A DNA stretch of 48,350 bases. Origin: Kutzneria sp. 744 (GTDB lineage: Bacteria > Actinomycetota > Actinomycetes > Mycobacteriales > Pseudonocardiaceae). The notes under the pieces were generated by a model, which worked only from the letters and a program-made list of their open reading frames with translations, was not told the origin of the DNA and made no database searches. Shown here piece by piece: positions 15,431-35,878 of the stretch; position 1 is the first letter of the stretch; each line of letters opens with the position of its first letter. A program made the translations under genes and the position numbers. Where the stretch lies: NCBI RefSeq assembly GCF_000568255.1, contig NZ_KK037166.1:9603097-9651446 (forward strand). Direction: 5' to 3'.

Positions 15431-15521
15431 CTCGTTCCGGAAGGCCAGCACGCCCAGGGGAAACCGCCAGCGCGATGGCCGCGCCGGCGGCGAAGGTGAT
15501 TCGTTTTCCCCAGGTGGTCAT
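15381..15521 (-). CDS. small hypothetical ORF coupled to the thioesterase (46 aa)
   Basis: ATG 15521 overlaps the thioesterase stop in an ATGA arrangement. The first ~20 residues are basic then hydrophobic, like a membrane anchor or signal (KRITFAAGAAIALA). The rest loses this character, while the +1 frame from about residue 20 reads FPLGVLAFRNESHS and looks more natural, so it may be a frameshifted small membrane protein. It could equally be chance. It is antisense to the last part of the gene at 14714. Confidence 0.25.
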   Translation of the reverse strand: MTTWGKRITFAAGAAIALAVSPGRAGLPERVTQPGFVVDVLSPSRP

Positions 15522-16261
15522 GATCGGCGCAGCGCGCCGGCGATCACCCGCAGGGTCTCCTCGGGCTGCTCCAGCACGGCGAAGTGGCCGCCGTTCAACG
15601 GGTGCAGGCCGAAGCCGGCGGTGGTCTGGTCGGCCCAGCCACGCATGGAGTCGTAGGTGGCCTGCTGGTCCTCGATGCCGCCCAGCGCCAGGATGGGGAC
15701 ATCGAGCTCGGGGCGGGGCATGTAGCGGTAGGCGACCTTGGCGGTGAGGTCGGCGCGCAGCGGCGGCATGATCATCTTGAGTATCCTCCGGTCGGTGAGG
15801 TACTGCTCGGGCGTGCCGCCGAGATCCCGCAGCAGGGCGATGATCTCCTCGTCGGTCACGGCGTCGTCGGCGAAGTCCTCGGACTGCGGGGCGGAGAACC
15901 CGGACACGATGAGGTGGGACGGCATGGGCCCGCCCAGGCCTCGGATGACGTGCAGCACCTCGAAAGCGGTCAACGCCCCGAAGCTGTGGCCGTACACCGC
16001 ATAGGGAGCGTCCTGGGCGTCAGCGAGCAGCGCCTCGGCCAGTTCCGAGGCCAGGGAAGGGATATCCACGTGCGGGGTCTCCCGCAGCCGGGTCTCCCGG
16101 CCGGGATACTGCACGGGAAGCACGCTGACGCCGGGAATCCGGCCGATCCACGGGCGGAAGGCTGAGGCGGAGCCGCCGGCGTGCGGCAGGCAGTACAGCC
16201 GAAGGCCGCCCTCCGTGTCCGGAAAGGGCAGCCAGCGGCTGTGACCGACAGTGGCGGTCAC
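15518..16261 (-). CDS. type II thioesterase
   Basis: 247 residues from GTG 16261. Type II (editing) thioesterases hydrolyse aberrant acyl groups from PKS/NRPS carrier domains. Motifs: LPHAGGSA near residue 25, nucleophile YGHSFGALTAFE (Ser93), acidic residue in ALGGIEDQQ, and histidine GGHFAV (His226). The GTG overlaps the FkbH-like stop (GTGA), so it is part of the PKS operon. No PKS protein here ends in its own thioesterase, so an additional release role cannot be excluded. Confidence 0.92.
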   Translation of the reverse strand: MTATVGHSRWLPFPDTEGGLRLYCLPHAGGSASAFRPWIGRIPGVSVLPVQYPGRETRLRETPHVDIPSLASELAEALLADAQDAPYAVYGHSFGALTAFEVLHVIRGLGGPMPSHLIVSGFSAPQSEDFADDAVTDEEIIALLRDLGGTPEQYLTDRRILKMIMPPLRADLTAKVAYRYMPRPELDVPILALGGIEDQQATYDSMRGWADQTTAGFGLHPLNGGHFAVLEQPEETLRVIAGALRRS

Positions 16262-34300: not shown

Positions 34301-35878
34301 CACATCGAAGTCCACGAACGGCTTCAGCGCTTCAGCGCACTCCGCGAGCTTGTCCGCGAACACCGGCTCGTCCAGCAGCCCCTGGGCCATCGCCGCCCAC
34401 TGGCCGCCCTGGCCCGGGAAGACGAAGGCGGTCGAACCCGGCGAAACCTTGCCCGTTACGGCGCCTTCCTGATTGAGAACGACTGTGCGGTGCTCGAACT
34501 GGGTCCGCGTGTGCAGGAGCGAGTAGGCGACATTGGCGTCCATAGTGGACGAAAGCGTTTGCGTCTGGGCCTGAAGGGCTTGCGGAGAGCGGGCGGTGAT
34601 GACGAGAGGACCGCCGAACTCAAAGGCCGGTGCCTCCTCTCGAGGCCCCTCCGCCACCACCAGATGGCAGTTGGTCCCGCCCACCCCGAACGAGCTCACA
34701 CCCGCGACCCGGCGGCCGTCCGGCCAGGACTGCCTCTCCCGCACCACATCCAGGTTCAGCTCCCCGAACGGGATATCCGGATTCGGCGTCTCGAAGTTCA
34801 GGCTGGCCGGCAGAACGCCGTGCCGCATGCTGAGGATCACCTTGAGCAGCCCGGCAATCCCGGCCGCGCCCTCAAGGTGCCCGATGTTGGTCTTCACCGA
34901 GCCGACCAGCAGCGTGCGATCGGCGTGCAGCGCGGTGCCCAGGGCGTGAGCCTCGATCGGGTCGCCGACACGGGTGCCGGTGCCGTGCAGCTCCACATAC
35001 CCGACCTCGGCCGGCGAAACACCGGCGGCGGCGTGGGCGAGGCGAATGACCTCCTGCTGGGCTGCACCGTGGGGGACGGTGAGCCCCTCCCCGCCGCCAT
35101 CGTTGTTGACGGCGCCGCCGAGGATCACGGCGTGCACCCGATCGCCGTCAGACACGGCGGACAGGGGCTTCAGCACGATGACGGCGCCACCCTCGCCACG
35201 CACATACCCATTGGCGCGGGCGTCGAAGGTGTGGCAGCGGCCGTCGGGCGACAGCGCGCCGAACTCGGCGATCGCCTCCGTGGTCTCGGCCAGCAGATTC
35301 AGGTTGACGCCGCCGGCCAGGGCCACCGTGCACGACCCGCGGCGCAGCTGCTCACACGCGATCTGCACGGCGACCAGCGACGACGACTGCCCGCTGTCCA
35401 CGGCCAGGCTCGGCCCGGTCAGCCCGAGCAGGTAGGACACCCGGTTGGCGATGAGGCTGCGATGGGTGCCGGTGAGCGAATGGGGGCCGGCCCCCAGTTT
35501 CGAGTGCAGCAGCGCGTAGTCCCCGTTGATGGCCCCGATGACCACGCCGGCGGCCTCGCCGCGCAGCGAATCCGGCGCGATCCGGGCGTTTTCCAACGCC
35601 TCCCACGACAGTTCCAGCACCAGCCGCTGCTGCGGATCCATGGCGGCGGCCTCGTTCGGCGAAATGCCGAAGAAGTCGGCGTCGAAACGGTCCACATCCG
35701 CGACGAAACCGCCGCGCCGGAATTCGGTCGCACCAGGCCAGCGGCCGTTCGGTGGCTCGGTGATCGCGTCGACGCCGGCGTCCAGCAGCCGCCAGAACTG
35801 CTCGGGGTCGGCCGCCCCCGGCAGCCGGCACGCGATTCCGACCACGGCGATCGGCTCGTTTGCAGCCATGCCAGTCAT
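28307..35878 (-). CDS. type I PKS A: loading KSQ-AT-ACP plus KS-AT-DH-KR-ACP
   Basis: 2523 residues from ATG 35878 (ATG 35869 also possible). Loading part: the KS has Gln164 in VDSGQSSSL in place of Cys, the hallmark of decarboxylating KSQ; AT with Ser571 (GHSQGE) and the methylmalonyl motif YASH (663-666); ACP Ser862 (GFDSNSL). Together these predict a propionyl starter. Module 1: KS Cys1088 (IDTACSSS), AT Ser1524 with the intermediate motif YAAH (1623-1626), DH with the HxxxGxxxxP motif at His1816, KR with TGGNSGLG near 2155, Tyr2277 and an LDD motif (B-type), ACP Ser2418 (GLDSLTS). It ends in a C-terminal docking domain. Module 1 should give an alpha,beta-double bond. First gene of the ~20 kb operon. 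Confidence 0.95.
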   Translation of the reverse strand: MTGMAANEPIAVVGIACRLPGAADPEQFWRLLDAGVDAITEPPNGRWPGATEFRRGGFVADVDRFDADFFGISPNEAAAMDPQQRLVLELSWEALENARIAPDSLRGEAAGVVIGAINGDYALLHSKLGAGPHSLTGTHRSLIANRVSYLLGLTGPSLAVDSGQSSSLVAVQIACEQLRRGSCTVALAGGVNLNLLAETTEAIAEFGALSPDGRCHTFDARANGYVRGEGGAVIVLKPLSAVSDGDRVHAVILGGAVNNDGGGEGLTVPHGAAQQEVIRLAHAAAGVSPAEVGYVELHGTGTRVGDPIEAHALGTALHADRTLLVGSVKTNIGHLEGAAGIAGLLKVILSMRHGVLPASLNFETPNPDIPFGELNLDVVRERQSWPDGRRVAGVSSFGVGGTNCHLVVAEGPREEAPAFEFGGPLVITARSPQALQAQTQTLSSTMDANVAYSLLHTRTQFEHRTVVLNQEGAVTGKVSPGSTAFVFPGQGGQWAAMAQGLLDEPVFADKLAECAEALKPFVDFDVLEVLQNGGDLSRVDVVQPALWAVMVSLAEVWRADGVTPAVVLGHSQGEVAAATAIGALSLADGARVIALRSKIAGRLTGGGLMSVGAPAESLTLPPGVTIAAVNGPRSVVLAGPAEELAGLQERLVDVRTKIVPAAYASHSPAVDELREELLPLFAAVRPQATDVTFISTVTGEPLDTRELDADYWFANLRQPVRFIDATKRALNDGVGRFIECSPHPLLLTSIDETADEAGREVAVIGTLRRDEGSPDRIRHALAEAYVAGAPVDWKITGRKVDLPTYRFQRERHWYGETAEAQTVAPTGDVREMVLAATAQVLGHKDATAIDATRPFKELGFDSNSLMRLRALLSAQSGRKLPTSLLYDYPSPQRLVEALRTSGEPAQVAPQRVPAPAQAPGSDPVAVIAMGCRYPGGANSPEEFWRLIASGADAVTPLPSNRGWDLDALFDGACVTRNGGFLHDADTFDAAFFGLSPREALAMEPQQRLMLEVSWEAIERGGLDPADLRGSSTGVFVGAMAMDYGPRLHQPTGVVDGHLMTGTALSVASGRIAYTFGLTGPALTIDTACSSSLVAIQLAMESLRRGECSLALAGGATLMANPGNLVEFTRQNGLSVDGRAKAFADNADGTSFSEGAGVLLLERLSDAERNGHQVLAVIRGIAVNQDGASNGLTAPNGLAQRQVIGKALADAGLSTADVDAVEAHGTGTALGDPIEANAILATYGQNRPADRPVWLGSVKSNIGHAQAAAGVAGVIKMVMAMRHGVLPRTLHVDRPTSKVEWESGNGRVLTESVPWPAGPRRAAVSSFGISGTNAHIIVEGVDTTEPTPGDGPLLWVISARSEKSLRRQGDRLAAFAEAGDLHAAATVLARKPSFAHRAVVVASSRDELREALQALADGEPHPALVTGEASLEVTPVFVFPGQGAQWVGMAVELLRENETFADELRRCDEALRPHTGWSVIDVLTQGRPTLDGTDVVQPVLWALMVSLAKLWRSIGVEPAAVVGHSQGEIAGAAVAGALTLNDAAKISALRGQIVGALDGTGGVLAVGLPADEVRERIAPWPGKLWVAVDNGPSATVIAGDLQAIDEFVAAQGEDVQLRRTPVAYAAHTPHVEAVKDELLRQIGTIEPAEATIKICSTCHGDFMPGTAMTPDYWYRNLSEPVSFDTAVRKFRERPLFIEVSPHPILAGAVREILADEGVDGTAVGTLRRHEGGQHQFLIAAATAYTQGAPVDWPKIVGPVTSHVDVPTYAFDRQRFWLHTTEGGGHPLLGDAVPVADTGGRLLTGKISRHSAPWVVDHAVNGTVLLPGTAFVDLALTAADGDQVEDLTLHAPLILPATGAVQLQVTVGGEDNGRRCMAIHSRTDGDWIKHASGVLSDGPRIAGRLNAWPVGTPIDLTDAYDRLAASGYEYGPAFQGLRNAWRDGDDYLVEVAVPDAGDFTVHPALLDAALHILVLDADELQLPFSWSGVWFEGRGVDRFRVRLSNGSLAIYDETGAQIGGVESLTLAPAPKGGVTTAELYRVDWVEAEPAGQASLTVARQGDLKGVLAQVQQWVEKDTDERLVFLADPSTLDGGKIWGLVRSAQSEHPNRFVLADCAEDEIPTTDEPQFAVRDGKFLVPRVVRHVNTESTMDLGGGTVLITGGNSGLGALIAQHLASKGVTDLLRVSRSGGPGGVACDISDRAQLTELIKGRRITAVIHAAGVLDDATVAELTPEKLDTVLRPKAEAAWLLHELLPDLKAFVLFSSVAGVLGNPGQGNYAAANGYLDALATHRQRLGLPATSIAWGLWSLPTTMTAHVNKVAWVAPLSVQQGMDMFDAAIGSPHGQLIAARWNREGDDVPPVLRTLFKPRRVVTVEAAPTRLDTESIFRLVRDNVAVALGHRSGATVDPDKPLGEQGLDSLTSVELRNKLGAATGLRLPASLVFNHPTVTRLAAYLAGELAPAEPAPEDLLREALDRIDPSTLDDDHRERLAAVLQETLRVLSPDALGLDLSSDEEIFAFIDTQL

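Follow-up and report, generated by a model that had tools for sequence, protein, structure and literature searches.

The window analysed here is a 48,350-nt stretch within the single-contig 11.6-Mb genome of Kutzneria sp. 744. It carries on its minus strand three polyketide synthase (PKS) genes, followed by a set of genes for a hydroxymalonyl-type extender unit. Judged from their content, these genes probably form the PKS core of a family of orphan biosynthetic clusters that would make a polyhydroxylated acyl-amine. Coordinates are those of the window unless another label is given; L001, L023, L024, L027, L028, L035 and L048 are locus labels, and G282, G398, G400, G412 and G477 are genome labels (G398 is Streptomyces sp. 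NPS554). The PKS part consists of the following genes, in which KS, AT, DH, KR, ACP and TE stand for ketosynthase, acyltransferase, dehydratase, ketoreductase, acyl carrier protein and thioesterase.

28307..35977, minus strand: PKS1, loading KSQ-AT(YASH)-ACP and module 1 KS-AT(YAAH, methylmalonyl-type)-DH-KR(LDD)-ACP (Pfam, motifs, PDB neighbours, tree)
23781..28310, minus strand: PKS2, docking domain and KS-AT(GYSLGE/HPFH/ANR)-KR-ACP, a predicted hydroxymalonyl module (Pfam, motifs, PDB neighbours, tree)
19547..23710, minus strand: PKS3, KS-AT(GYSLGE/HAFH/PCR)-KR-ACP, a predicted hydroxymalonyl module, no terminal TE (Pfam, motifs, PDB neighbours, tree)
18711..19556, minus strand: FkbK-like 3-hydroxyacyl dehydrogenase of the hydroxymalonyl-ACP set (NCBIfam; 82.5% to G282)
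18454..18699, minus strand: stand-alone ACP, FkbJ-like, for the hydroxymalonyl unit (Pfam; counterpart in G282)
17310..18443, minus strand: FkbI-like protein of the acyl-CoA dehydrogenase family (Pfam, NCBIfam; counterpart in G282)
16258..17313, minus strand: FkbH glyceryl-ACP former (TIGR01686, 277.8 bits against a cut-off of 146.65)
15518..16261, minus strand: stand-alone TE with GHSFG (Pfam, motif)

The loading module of PKS1 contains a KSQ domain with the motif VDSGQSSSL, in which Gln replaces Cys, an AT with GHSQGE/YASH and an ACP, and module 1 contains a KS (DTACSSSL), an AT, a DH (HAVNGTVLLP), a KR with the LDD motif and an ACP. The KSQ, KS, DH and KR motifs were read in three clusters, that of the window and those of two relatives, and the KSQ motif was intact in all three. 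The LDD motif was found by motif reading in the KR of neither PKS2 nor PKS3. PKS1 starts at 35977, the start at 35878 given in an earlier note on this DNA being an internal ATG; the GTG start of PKS3 is preceded by the Shine-Dalgarno-like sequence GGAGGGGG, and an alternative upstream ATG at 23848 is possible. No methyltransferase family, O-methyltransferase included, was found among the open reading frames (ORFs) scanned with Pfam, which were part of those of the cluster. The domain order of the three proteins, the complete FkbK-ACP-FkbI-FkbH set and the lack of an O-methyltransferase among the scanned ORFs are all as the earlier note had described them, at the place it had given.

The specificity of the ATs decides which units are used. 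Use of ACP-borne extender units has been tied to hydrophobic replacement of an RXR motif five residues before YASH, and the AT of ZmaA has GYSFG (PMC4207774, excerpt). The control set comprised 69 ATs of further PKS regions in this genome, NPS554 and G400, with AT matches shorter than 600 bases dropped. The ATs of PKS2 and PKS3 both carry GYS, and all 69 controls carry GHS. The first residue of the carrier motif is A in PKS2 (ANR) and P in PKS3 (PCR); it is basic in 64 of the 69 controls and in every one of the 55 controls with HAFH. In a tree of 88 ATs, seven GYS-type ATs from three clusters formed one group with two Streptomyces cattleya ATs and the AT of ZmaA (support 99/90), and the AT of CurL fell outside it. 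The motifs, the tree and the FkbH set support the prediction of two hydroxymalonyl modules, PKS2 and PKS3. The AT of module 1 has GHSQGE, lies inside the YASH clade, and finds its best PDB matches in the modular-PKS AT 6iyr and the EryA ATs, two of which are listed as methylmalonyl-CoA-specific (PMC4207774, excerpt). It is methylmalonyl-type, and a 6-methyl branch is therefore to be expected in the product.

From these assignments a chain can be proposed. The KSQ domain and its methylmalonyl-type AT would provide a propionyl start, to which module 1 would add a methylmalonyl unit that is reduced and dehydrated, giving 2-methylpent-2-enoyl. FkbH, the ACP, FkbI and FkbK would make hydroxymalonyl-ACP; PKS2 and PKS3 would each add one hydroxymalonyl unit with ketoreduction only, to yield 2,3,4,5-tetrahydroxy-6-methylnon-6-enoyl-ACP (free acid C10H18O6). 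We consider this tetraol chain a likely product of the predicted modules. The earlier note had derived a propionyl starter, one enoyl unit and two hydroxymalonyl units, and the KSQ with its YASH AT, the DH-KR module, the AT motifs, the tree and the FkbH set all point the same way. It had also proposed a 2,3,4,5-tetrahydroxynon-6-enoyl chain and called for domain and AT-specificity prediction on the three PKS proteins. That prediction bears out the vicinal tetraol, built as in bengamide, through the hydroxymalonyl signatures of PKS2 and PKS3; the plain non-6-enoyl backbone was rejected on account of the methylmalonyl-type AT of module 1 (motif, PDB matches and tree).

About 50 kb of the cluster is conserved in the Amycolatopsis-like genome G282 and in Streptomyces sp. 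NPS554. G282, which belongs to another genus of the same family, keeps nearly the whole arrangement of the window, at 82-83% identity for the FkbH set, 78% for an ATP-grasp ligase-like protein encoded to the left of the PKS genes and 54-64% for PKS1-3. Because PKS1-3, the FkbH set and the TE keep their order in another genus at 54-83% identity, chance is not an issue. The extra cluster genes of G282 match Amycolatopsis loci at 82-98%, and on this sequence likeness G282 is probably an Amycolatopsis.

The second half of the cluster, which is its most unusual part, lies mainly to the left of the PKS genes.

75..1259, plus strand: ATP-grasp ligase-like protein, the frame extending upstream toward a condensation domain (L001) across a stretch of N (profile match; one open frame in K. 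buriramensis)
1256..2524, plus strand: BtrK-like pyridoxal phosphate (PLP) decarboxylase (best PDB match BtrK, E 6.9e-91)
2524..2784, plus strand: ACP1 (profile match, conserved in loci)
2787..3722, plus strand: KASIII-like protein a (profile match, alignment)
3719..4312, plus strand: small acyl-CoA dehydrogenase-like protein, matched in the C-terminal family domain only (profile match)
4309..5448, plus strand: large acyl-CoA dehydrogenase-like protein (profile match)
5441..6163, plus strand: 240-aa protein, probable degenerate KASIII-like (thiolase-fold) subunit (AlphaFold, Foldseek)
6160..6543, plus strand: phosphopantetheinyl transferase superfamily protein, ACPS (profile match)
6540..8033, plus strand: stand-alone adenylation enzyme, VinM/IdnL7-like (best PDB matches 8k4r and 6akd)
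8030..8977, plus strand: KASIII-like protein b (profile match, alignment)
9243..9941, minus strand: alpha/beta hydrolase (of the 11 loci, G282 and NPS554, K. buriramensis alone gave a match)
10126..11130, minus strand: LuxR-type regulator, conserved in the cluster family (profile match, counterparts)
11301..11561, plus strand: ACP2, presumed partner of the ligase (profile match)
11554..13041, plus strand: AMP ligase, VinN-like (TIGR03098 over the cut-off; nearest single enzyme in the PDB 3wvn)
13035..13868, plus strand: ABC transporter ATPase (profile match, counterpart in G282)
13858..14631, plus strand: ABC-2 transporter permease (Pfam, counterpart in G282)
14714..15430, plus strand: 238-aa protein with a hydrophobic stretch and no family, at the position taken in G282 and NPS554 by a KS-ACP protein
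36116..37351, plus strand: PLP decarboxylase, VinO-like by context (TIGR03099 over the cut-off)
37339..39585, plus strand: SARP-type activator, conserved in G282 and NPS554 (profile match)
39596..40534, plus strand: F420-type luciferase-like oxidoreductase, conserved in G282 and NPS554 (profile match)

For both decarboxylases the top PDB match is BtrK. The PDB entries 8k4r and 6akd we take to be VinM and IdnL7, and 3wvn is presumably VinN. Cys114, His264 and Asp269 are invariant in the two KASIII-like proteins across the four sequences aligned. For the 240-aa protein, the best AlphaFold model had a predicted local distance difference test score (pLDDT) of 75.6 and a predicted template modelling score of 0.74, the other four models reaching pLDDT 46.5-64.9; Foldseek found PqsBC, ChlB3 (titled acyltransferase) and CerJ as fold neighbours at template modelling scores of 0.54-0.62. 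These models are suggestive only of a degenerate KASIII-like subunit. Upstream of the window (L001) lies a condensation domain (PF00668), and its NHLxxDD motif is present in L001, in K. buriramensis and in all four other loci read. The condensation domain and the ATP-grasp protein form one open frame in K. buriramensis (L027:8339-11182) and are separate genes in G282 and NPS554. A second dehydrogenase-like pair, beyond the large and small genes listed, is also found upstream. The 238-aa ORF was considered as a remnant of the KS-ACP protein of the relatives and was found to be unrelated to it (best E 0.85). The cluster edge is adjoined by a response regulator and histidine kinase pair (40952-42918), and further on a 639-aa ORF (43253-45172) has no Pfam family.

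A scan of named genomes gave 11 loci, from K. buriramensis, seven Amycolatopsis, Catenulispora rubra, NPS554 and one contig labelled Melainabacteria. The genes for the ATP-grasp protein, the BtrK-like decarboxylase, ACP1, a KASIII-like protein and the small dehydrogenase-like protein are present in all 11, and the ACP adjoins the decarboxylase in 10 of them, being further off in L035. The large dehydrogenase-like, 240-aa and ACPS-type genes occur in 10 of 11 loci, the missing one being a 6.8-kb contig. FkbH was found at 79-93% in all seven cluster genomes tested (seven of the 11 loci); it shares a contig with the cassette in five, and is on another contig in A. rifamycinica and C. rubra. The ATP-grasp protein of the window is 91% identical to that of K. 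buriramensis, and three genomes of the genus have it at 91-95%. With a threshold of E 1e-40 it was matched in 36 of 297 family genomes, at 64% or more in nine and with a best match of 40-47% in 27. A close FkbH (67-95%) accompanied it in six of the seven tested genomes with an ATP-grasp protein of at least 64%, the exception G412 being 74% complete, and FkbH reached at most 48% in all five tested genomes of the low-identity group. Out of 397 genomes of the order, this genome and G282 alone gave the KASIII-like query a score above 120 bits. Taken together, the pattern is that of a conserved cluster family rather than a single odd locus, as far as sequence comparison goes, and no described product or cluster of this kind was recognised in the literature searched. 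L028, a metagenome-bin contig labelled Candidatus Melainabacteria, carries cassette genes 70-83% identical to the window, and is possibly an actinobacterial contig in the wrong bin. On the Streptomyces decoyicus plasmid NZ_CP108348.1 (L048), a related set of KASIII, ATP-grasp (46%), PLP enzyme and ACP genes adjoins a nonribosomal peptide synthetase (NRPS) with TrpC and an acyl-CoA dehydrogenase. Other cluster types thus use the cassette too.

A tricorn protease gene (L001:11689-15060) lies upstream of the condensation domain and of the window. Beside the cassette, four small ORFs, the tricorn gene and an ORF of the phosphopantetheinyl transferase superfamily are conserved (L001:11117-16605; L024:12680-18490); one of the small ORFs near tricorn matches GNAT models in Pfam, and another gave a GNAT-fold model at pLDDT 82.2. 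Nearby, the ORF at L001:10389-10970 matches PF10706 (aminoglycoside-2''-adenylyltransferase family) with 196.5 bits and is not seen as part of the cluster. The tricorn gene is present in nine of the 11 loci of the named-genome scan, and for C. rubra no copy was shown close to the cassette. A tricorn match occurs in all 11 cluster genomes, as the sole copy in six. Within the genus it was found in four of seven genomes, exactly those with the ATP-grasp gene, though these are small numbers of related genomes. It lies 7-18 kb from the ATP-grasp gene in six of the seven tested high-identity genomes and near it in none of the five low-identity ones. In a tree that drew on 18 loci, two of which gave no row, the 10 cluster copies formed one clade apart from six other copies. 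The cluster tricorns keep a segment SDGE or SNGE, aligned with other tricorns, to which we presume a catalytic role. The cluster tricorn is often the only copy and hence more than a spare version of a housekeeping gene; this suits a role in maturation no less than one in immunity.

How the acyl chain meets the second half can be proposed from these genes. Because PKS3 has no TE, the chain may be handed on by the stand-alone condensation domain, which would pass it to the amine of an omega-aminoacyl-ACP to form an amide. The omega-aminoacyl-ACP would be made on ACP1 by the ATP-grasp protein and the BtrK-like decarboxylase. The missing TE, the condensation domain and the BtrK-like trio lead us to this amide step, which we put forward tentatively and at somewhat less than even chances. 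The acyl-CoA-dehydrogenase-like pairs and KASIII-like proteins may modify or move the aminoacyl half, and the set of ligase, ACP2 and second decarboxylase may supply a second decarboxylated aminoacyl unit. The adjoining tricorn protease may act in maturation or self-protection.

Several observations weigh against the proposed assembly. The condensation domain lacks the first His of HHxxxDG, and the VinM-like enzyme suggests a capped aminoacyl starter, a poor fit with an amide at the acid end. G282 has an extra KS-AT-KR-ACP module and a KS-ACP protein, both absent from the window. NPS554 likewise has a KS-ACP protein and an extra module with a decayed AT; the KS-ACP protein, without an AT, lies at L023:13612-16581 and on the NPS554 contig (G398:C15) at 290109-293369. 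No GxSxG motif was found in that decayed AT (first module of NPS554 PKS3, G398:C15:277074-285833, residues about 530-710), the module being otherwise KS-KR-ACP, and a hexaol is not predicted for NPS554 because of this decay. NPS554 is described as holding orphan PKS clusters, one of them with a module lacking an AT (PMC4306953, excerpt), and this may be the same cluster. As to AT specificity, a non-basic first residue also occurs in five of the 69 controls (three Q, one E, and in a GTAH AT one A), and the third residue of ANR and PCR remains basic (Arg), unlike MCM of ZmaA. ZmaA forms a long branch, so its place in the tree is less sure. The PKS2 AT (HPFH) is 39-42% identical to the S. cattleya ATs, compared with 48-49% for the PKS3 AT, and hydroxymalonyl use by the S. 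cattleya ATs is itself inferred, only from the butyrolactol paper.

One could suppose that PKS2 and PKS3 use malonyl-CoA, the hydroxymalonyl set feeding one of them or neither, so that 1,3-diols are formed instead of the tetraol. HPFH and HAFH do resemble malonyl ATs, and among the best PDB matches of both ATs is that of CurL, which we take to be a malonyl user. This is nevertheless improbable: GYS and the non-basic first motif residue differ from all 55 HAFH controls, the two ATs group with those of ZmaA and S. cattleya with CurL outside, and a complete FkbH set stands co-directional behind PKS3. Slightly more improbable still is a chance neighbourhood of two separate clusters, the left cassette and the PKS. 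It would accommodate the wider ATP-grasp group, seen at 40-47% where a genome has no close FkbH, and G477, where a 64% ATP-grasp copy and FkbH are on different contigs; against it, cassette and PKS are interleaved and conserved together in G282 and NPS554, and a close FkbH accompanies the high-identity ATP-grasp proteins in six of seven genomes tested and the low-identity ones in none of five.

More serious, though still unlikely, is an aminoacyl-started polyketide. Here the ligase, ACP2, decarboxylase and VinM-like enzyme would produce a capped beta-aminoacyl starter, loaded by a KASIII-like acyltransferase as in vicenistatin-type macrolactams, with the polyol end released by lactonisation or lactamisation. 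Counterparts of the vicenistatin loading enzymes are present (PMC11284099, excerpt), ChlB3 and CerJ are fold neighbours of the 240-aa protein, and the alpha/beta hydrolase and the peptidase are at hand for uncapping. PKS1, however, opens with an intact KSQ-AT-ACP, kept in each of the three clusters, no Acyl_transf_1 match was found outside the PKS among the ORFs scanned when a stand-alone AT was sought, and the VinM-like gene has no match in G282 or in the seven Amycolatopsis loci. A true actinomycete bengamide-type cluster, with the same acyl half on a lactam-forming amino acid and a plain or isobutyryl-derived chain, has the least chance, and a very slight one. The three PKS genes, the one enoyl and two glycolate units and a nearby peptidase gene do recall the ben cluster (PMC6163206, excerpt), but the loading and module-1 ATs are methylmalonyl-type, no lysine-type NRPS with condensation, adenylation, peptidyl carrier protein and TE domains was found among the ORFs scanned, and none of the seven M24 peptidase matches in the genome is near the cluster (9.58-9.66 Mb). 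We thus prefer the PKS core of a polyhydroxylated acyl-amine cluster.

In its boldest form, which we consider speculative and unlikely to hold in every part, this reading would describe a new actinomycete product class. An amide bond would join an alpha-methyl-enoyl tetraol (hexaol in the Amycolatopsis-like cluster) to a desaturated omega-amino acid, which a heteromeric cassette of KASIII-like and acyl-CoA-dehydrogenase-like proteins would build on a discrete ACP. The product would act on a peptidase, the tricorn of the cluster being a target-type immunity or maturation enzyme, which would parallel bengamide and methionine aminopeptidase. Should tricorn confer immunity, products of this class would offer a starting point for inhibitors of tricorn-type proteases; should it serve maturation, this would be a new role for a tricorn protease. 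More directly, the analysis points to bengamide-like chain-building logic in actinomycetes within a conserved cluster family, names an exact testable fragment, the C10H18O6 acid, and brings to light an aminoacyl-ACP cassette with a chemistry that the literature examined does not describe. The cluster is a conserved variant of hydroxymalonyl PKS clusters, and its unexplained second half is the part worth work.

Among known systems, the cassette recalls butirosin, in which BtrI, BtrJ and BtrK form an omega-aminoacyl-ACP pathway. Here too an ATP-grasp protein, a PLP decarboxylase and an ACP stand in a row, and all three are present in all 11 loci; the window differs in its KASIII-like and dehydrogenase-like partners and its condensation domain. 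The functions of VinN, VinO, VinM and VinK in vicenistatin-type loading are described in PMC11284099 (excerpt), and the window has a ligase, ACP and PLP decarboxylase of similar kinds and an adenylation enzyme of the amide-forming type, these being family-level matches only. It differs in having a KSQ loading module, and the stand-alone AT (VinK) and N-terminal ACP loading of that system were not found, the AT having been sought among the scanned ORFs. With zwittermicin ZmaA (PMC4207774, excerpt) the window shares ACP-borne hydroxymalonate, given a FkbH, ACP, FkbI and FkbK set without an O-methyltransferase in the scanned ORFs and an AT signature for ACP recognition (GYS, a non-basic first carrier-motif residue and the same AT group), the features of a PKS that uses hydroxymalonyl-ACP. 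That system, in contrast, is a Bacillus NRPS-PKS for an aminopolyol, and ZmaA has MCM/GAAH where the window has ANR/HPFH and PCR/HAFH.

In the bengamide (ben) cluster of Myxococcus virescens, three PKS genes and an NRPS are accompanied by a four-gene extender cassette and a gene for a methionine aminopeptidase (PMC6163206, excerpt). In both systems a short three-gene PKS with one enoyl unit followed by two glycolate units is expected to hand its acyl-ACP to an amine, and a peptidase gene belongs to the cluster. By the description in that excerpt rather than by sequence, bengamide has an isobutyrate start and malonate in module 1, as opposed to the propionate-type start and methylmalonate predicted here; it also has a lysine NRPS with TE lactamisation, and methionine aminopeptidase instead of tricorn. 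When membership was examined, the sequence supported the two glycolate modules, but not the starter or the module-1 unit; the lysine NRPS was not found among the ORFs scanned, nor an aminopeptidase gene near the cluster. On its predicted modules the cluster follows the logic of bengamide chain assembly without being a bengamide cluster.

Butyrolactol A from Streptomyces comes nearer (PMC5355916, excerpt). There, too, a methylmalonyl unit is followed by hydroxymalonyl units, the genes run in the order PKS, dehydrogenase (HCDH), ACP, acyl-CoA dehydrogenase, FkbH, thioesterase, and an ABC transporter pair is present; a separate KS-type protein of 868 aa is listed beside the ABC transporter genes, and a separate KS protein is likewise present in the relatives G282 and NPS554 but absent from the window. 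Butyrolactol differs in its tert-butyl start, polyene chain, hydroxymalonyl-derived C1-C8 and lactone, and the gene table of PMC5355916 shows no ATP-grasp, PLP decarboxylase, condensation domain, AMP ligase or tricorn gene. The same excerpt names S. cattleya PKS proteins as homologues and reports that feeding of 13C-glucose and acetate supported hydroxymalonyl units in a strain other than S. cattleya. On an S. cattleya plasmid, PKS3 is matched at 51% over 75% of its length and FkbH at 69%, and we infer that this is the locus meant there. The earlier note had expected a new actinomycete route with a different second half. The second half does differ; actinomycete use of hydroxymalonyl-ACP is not new in itself, since butyrolactol is already such a route. 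The closest described PKS and extender arrangement is that of butyrolactol, not that of bengamide.

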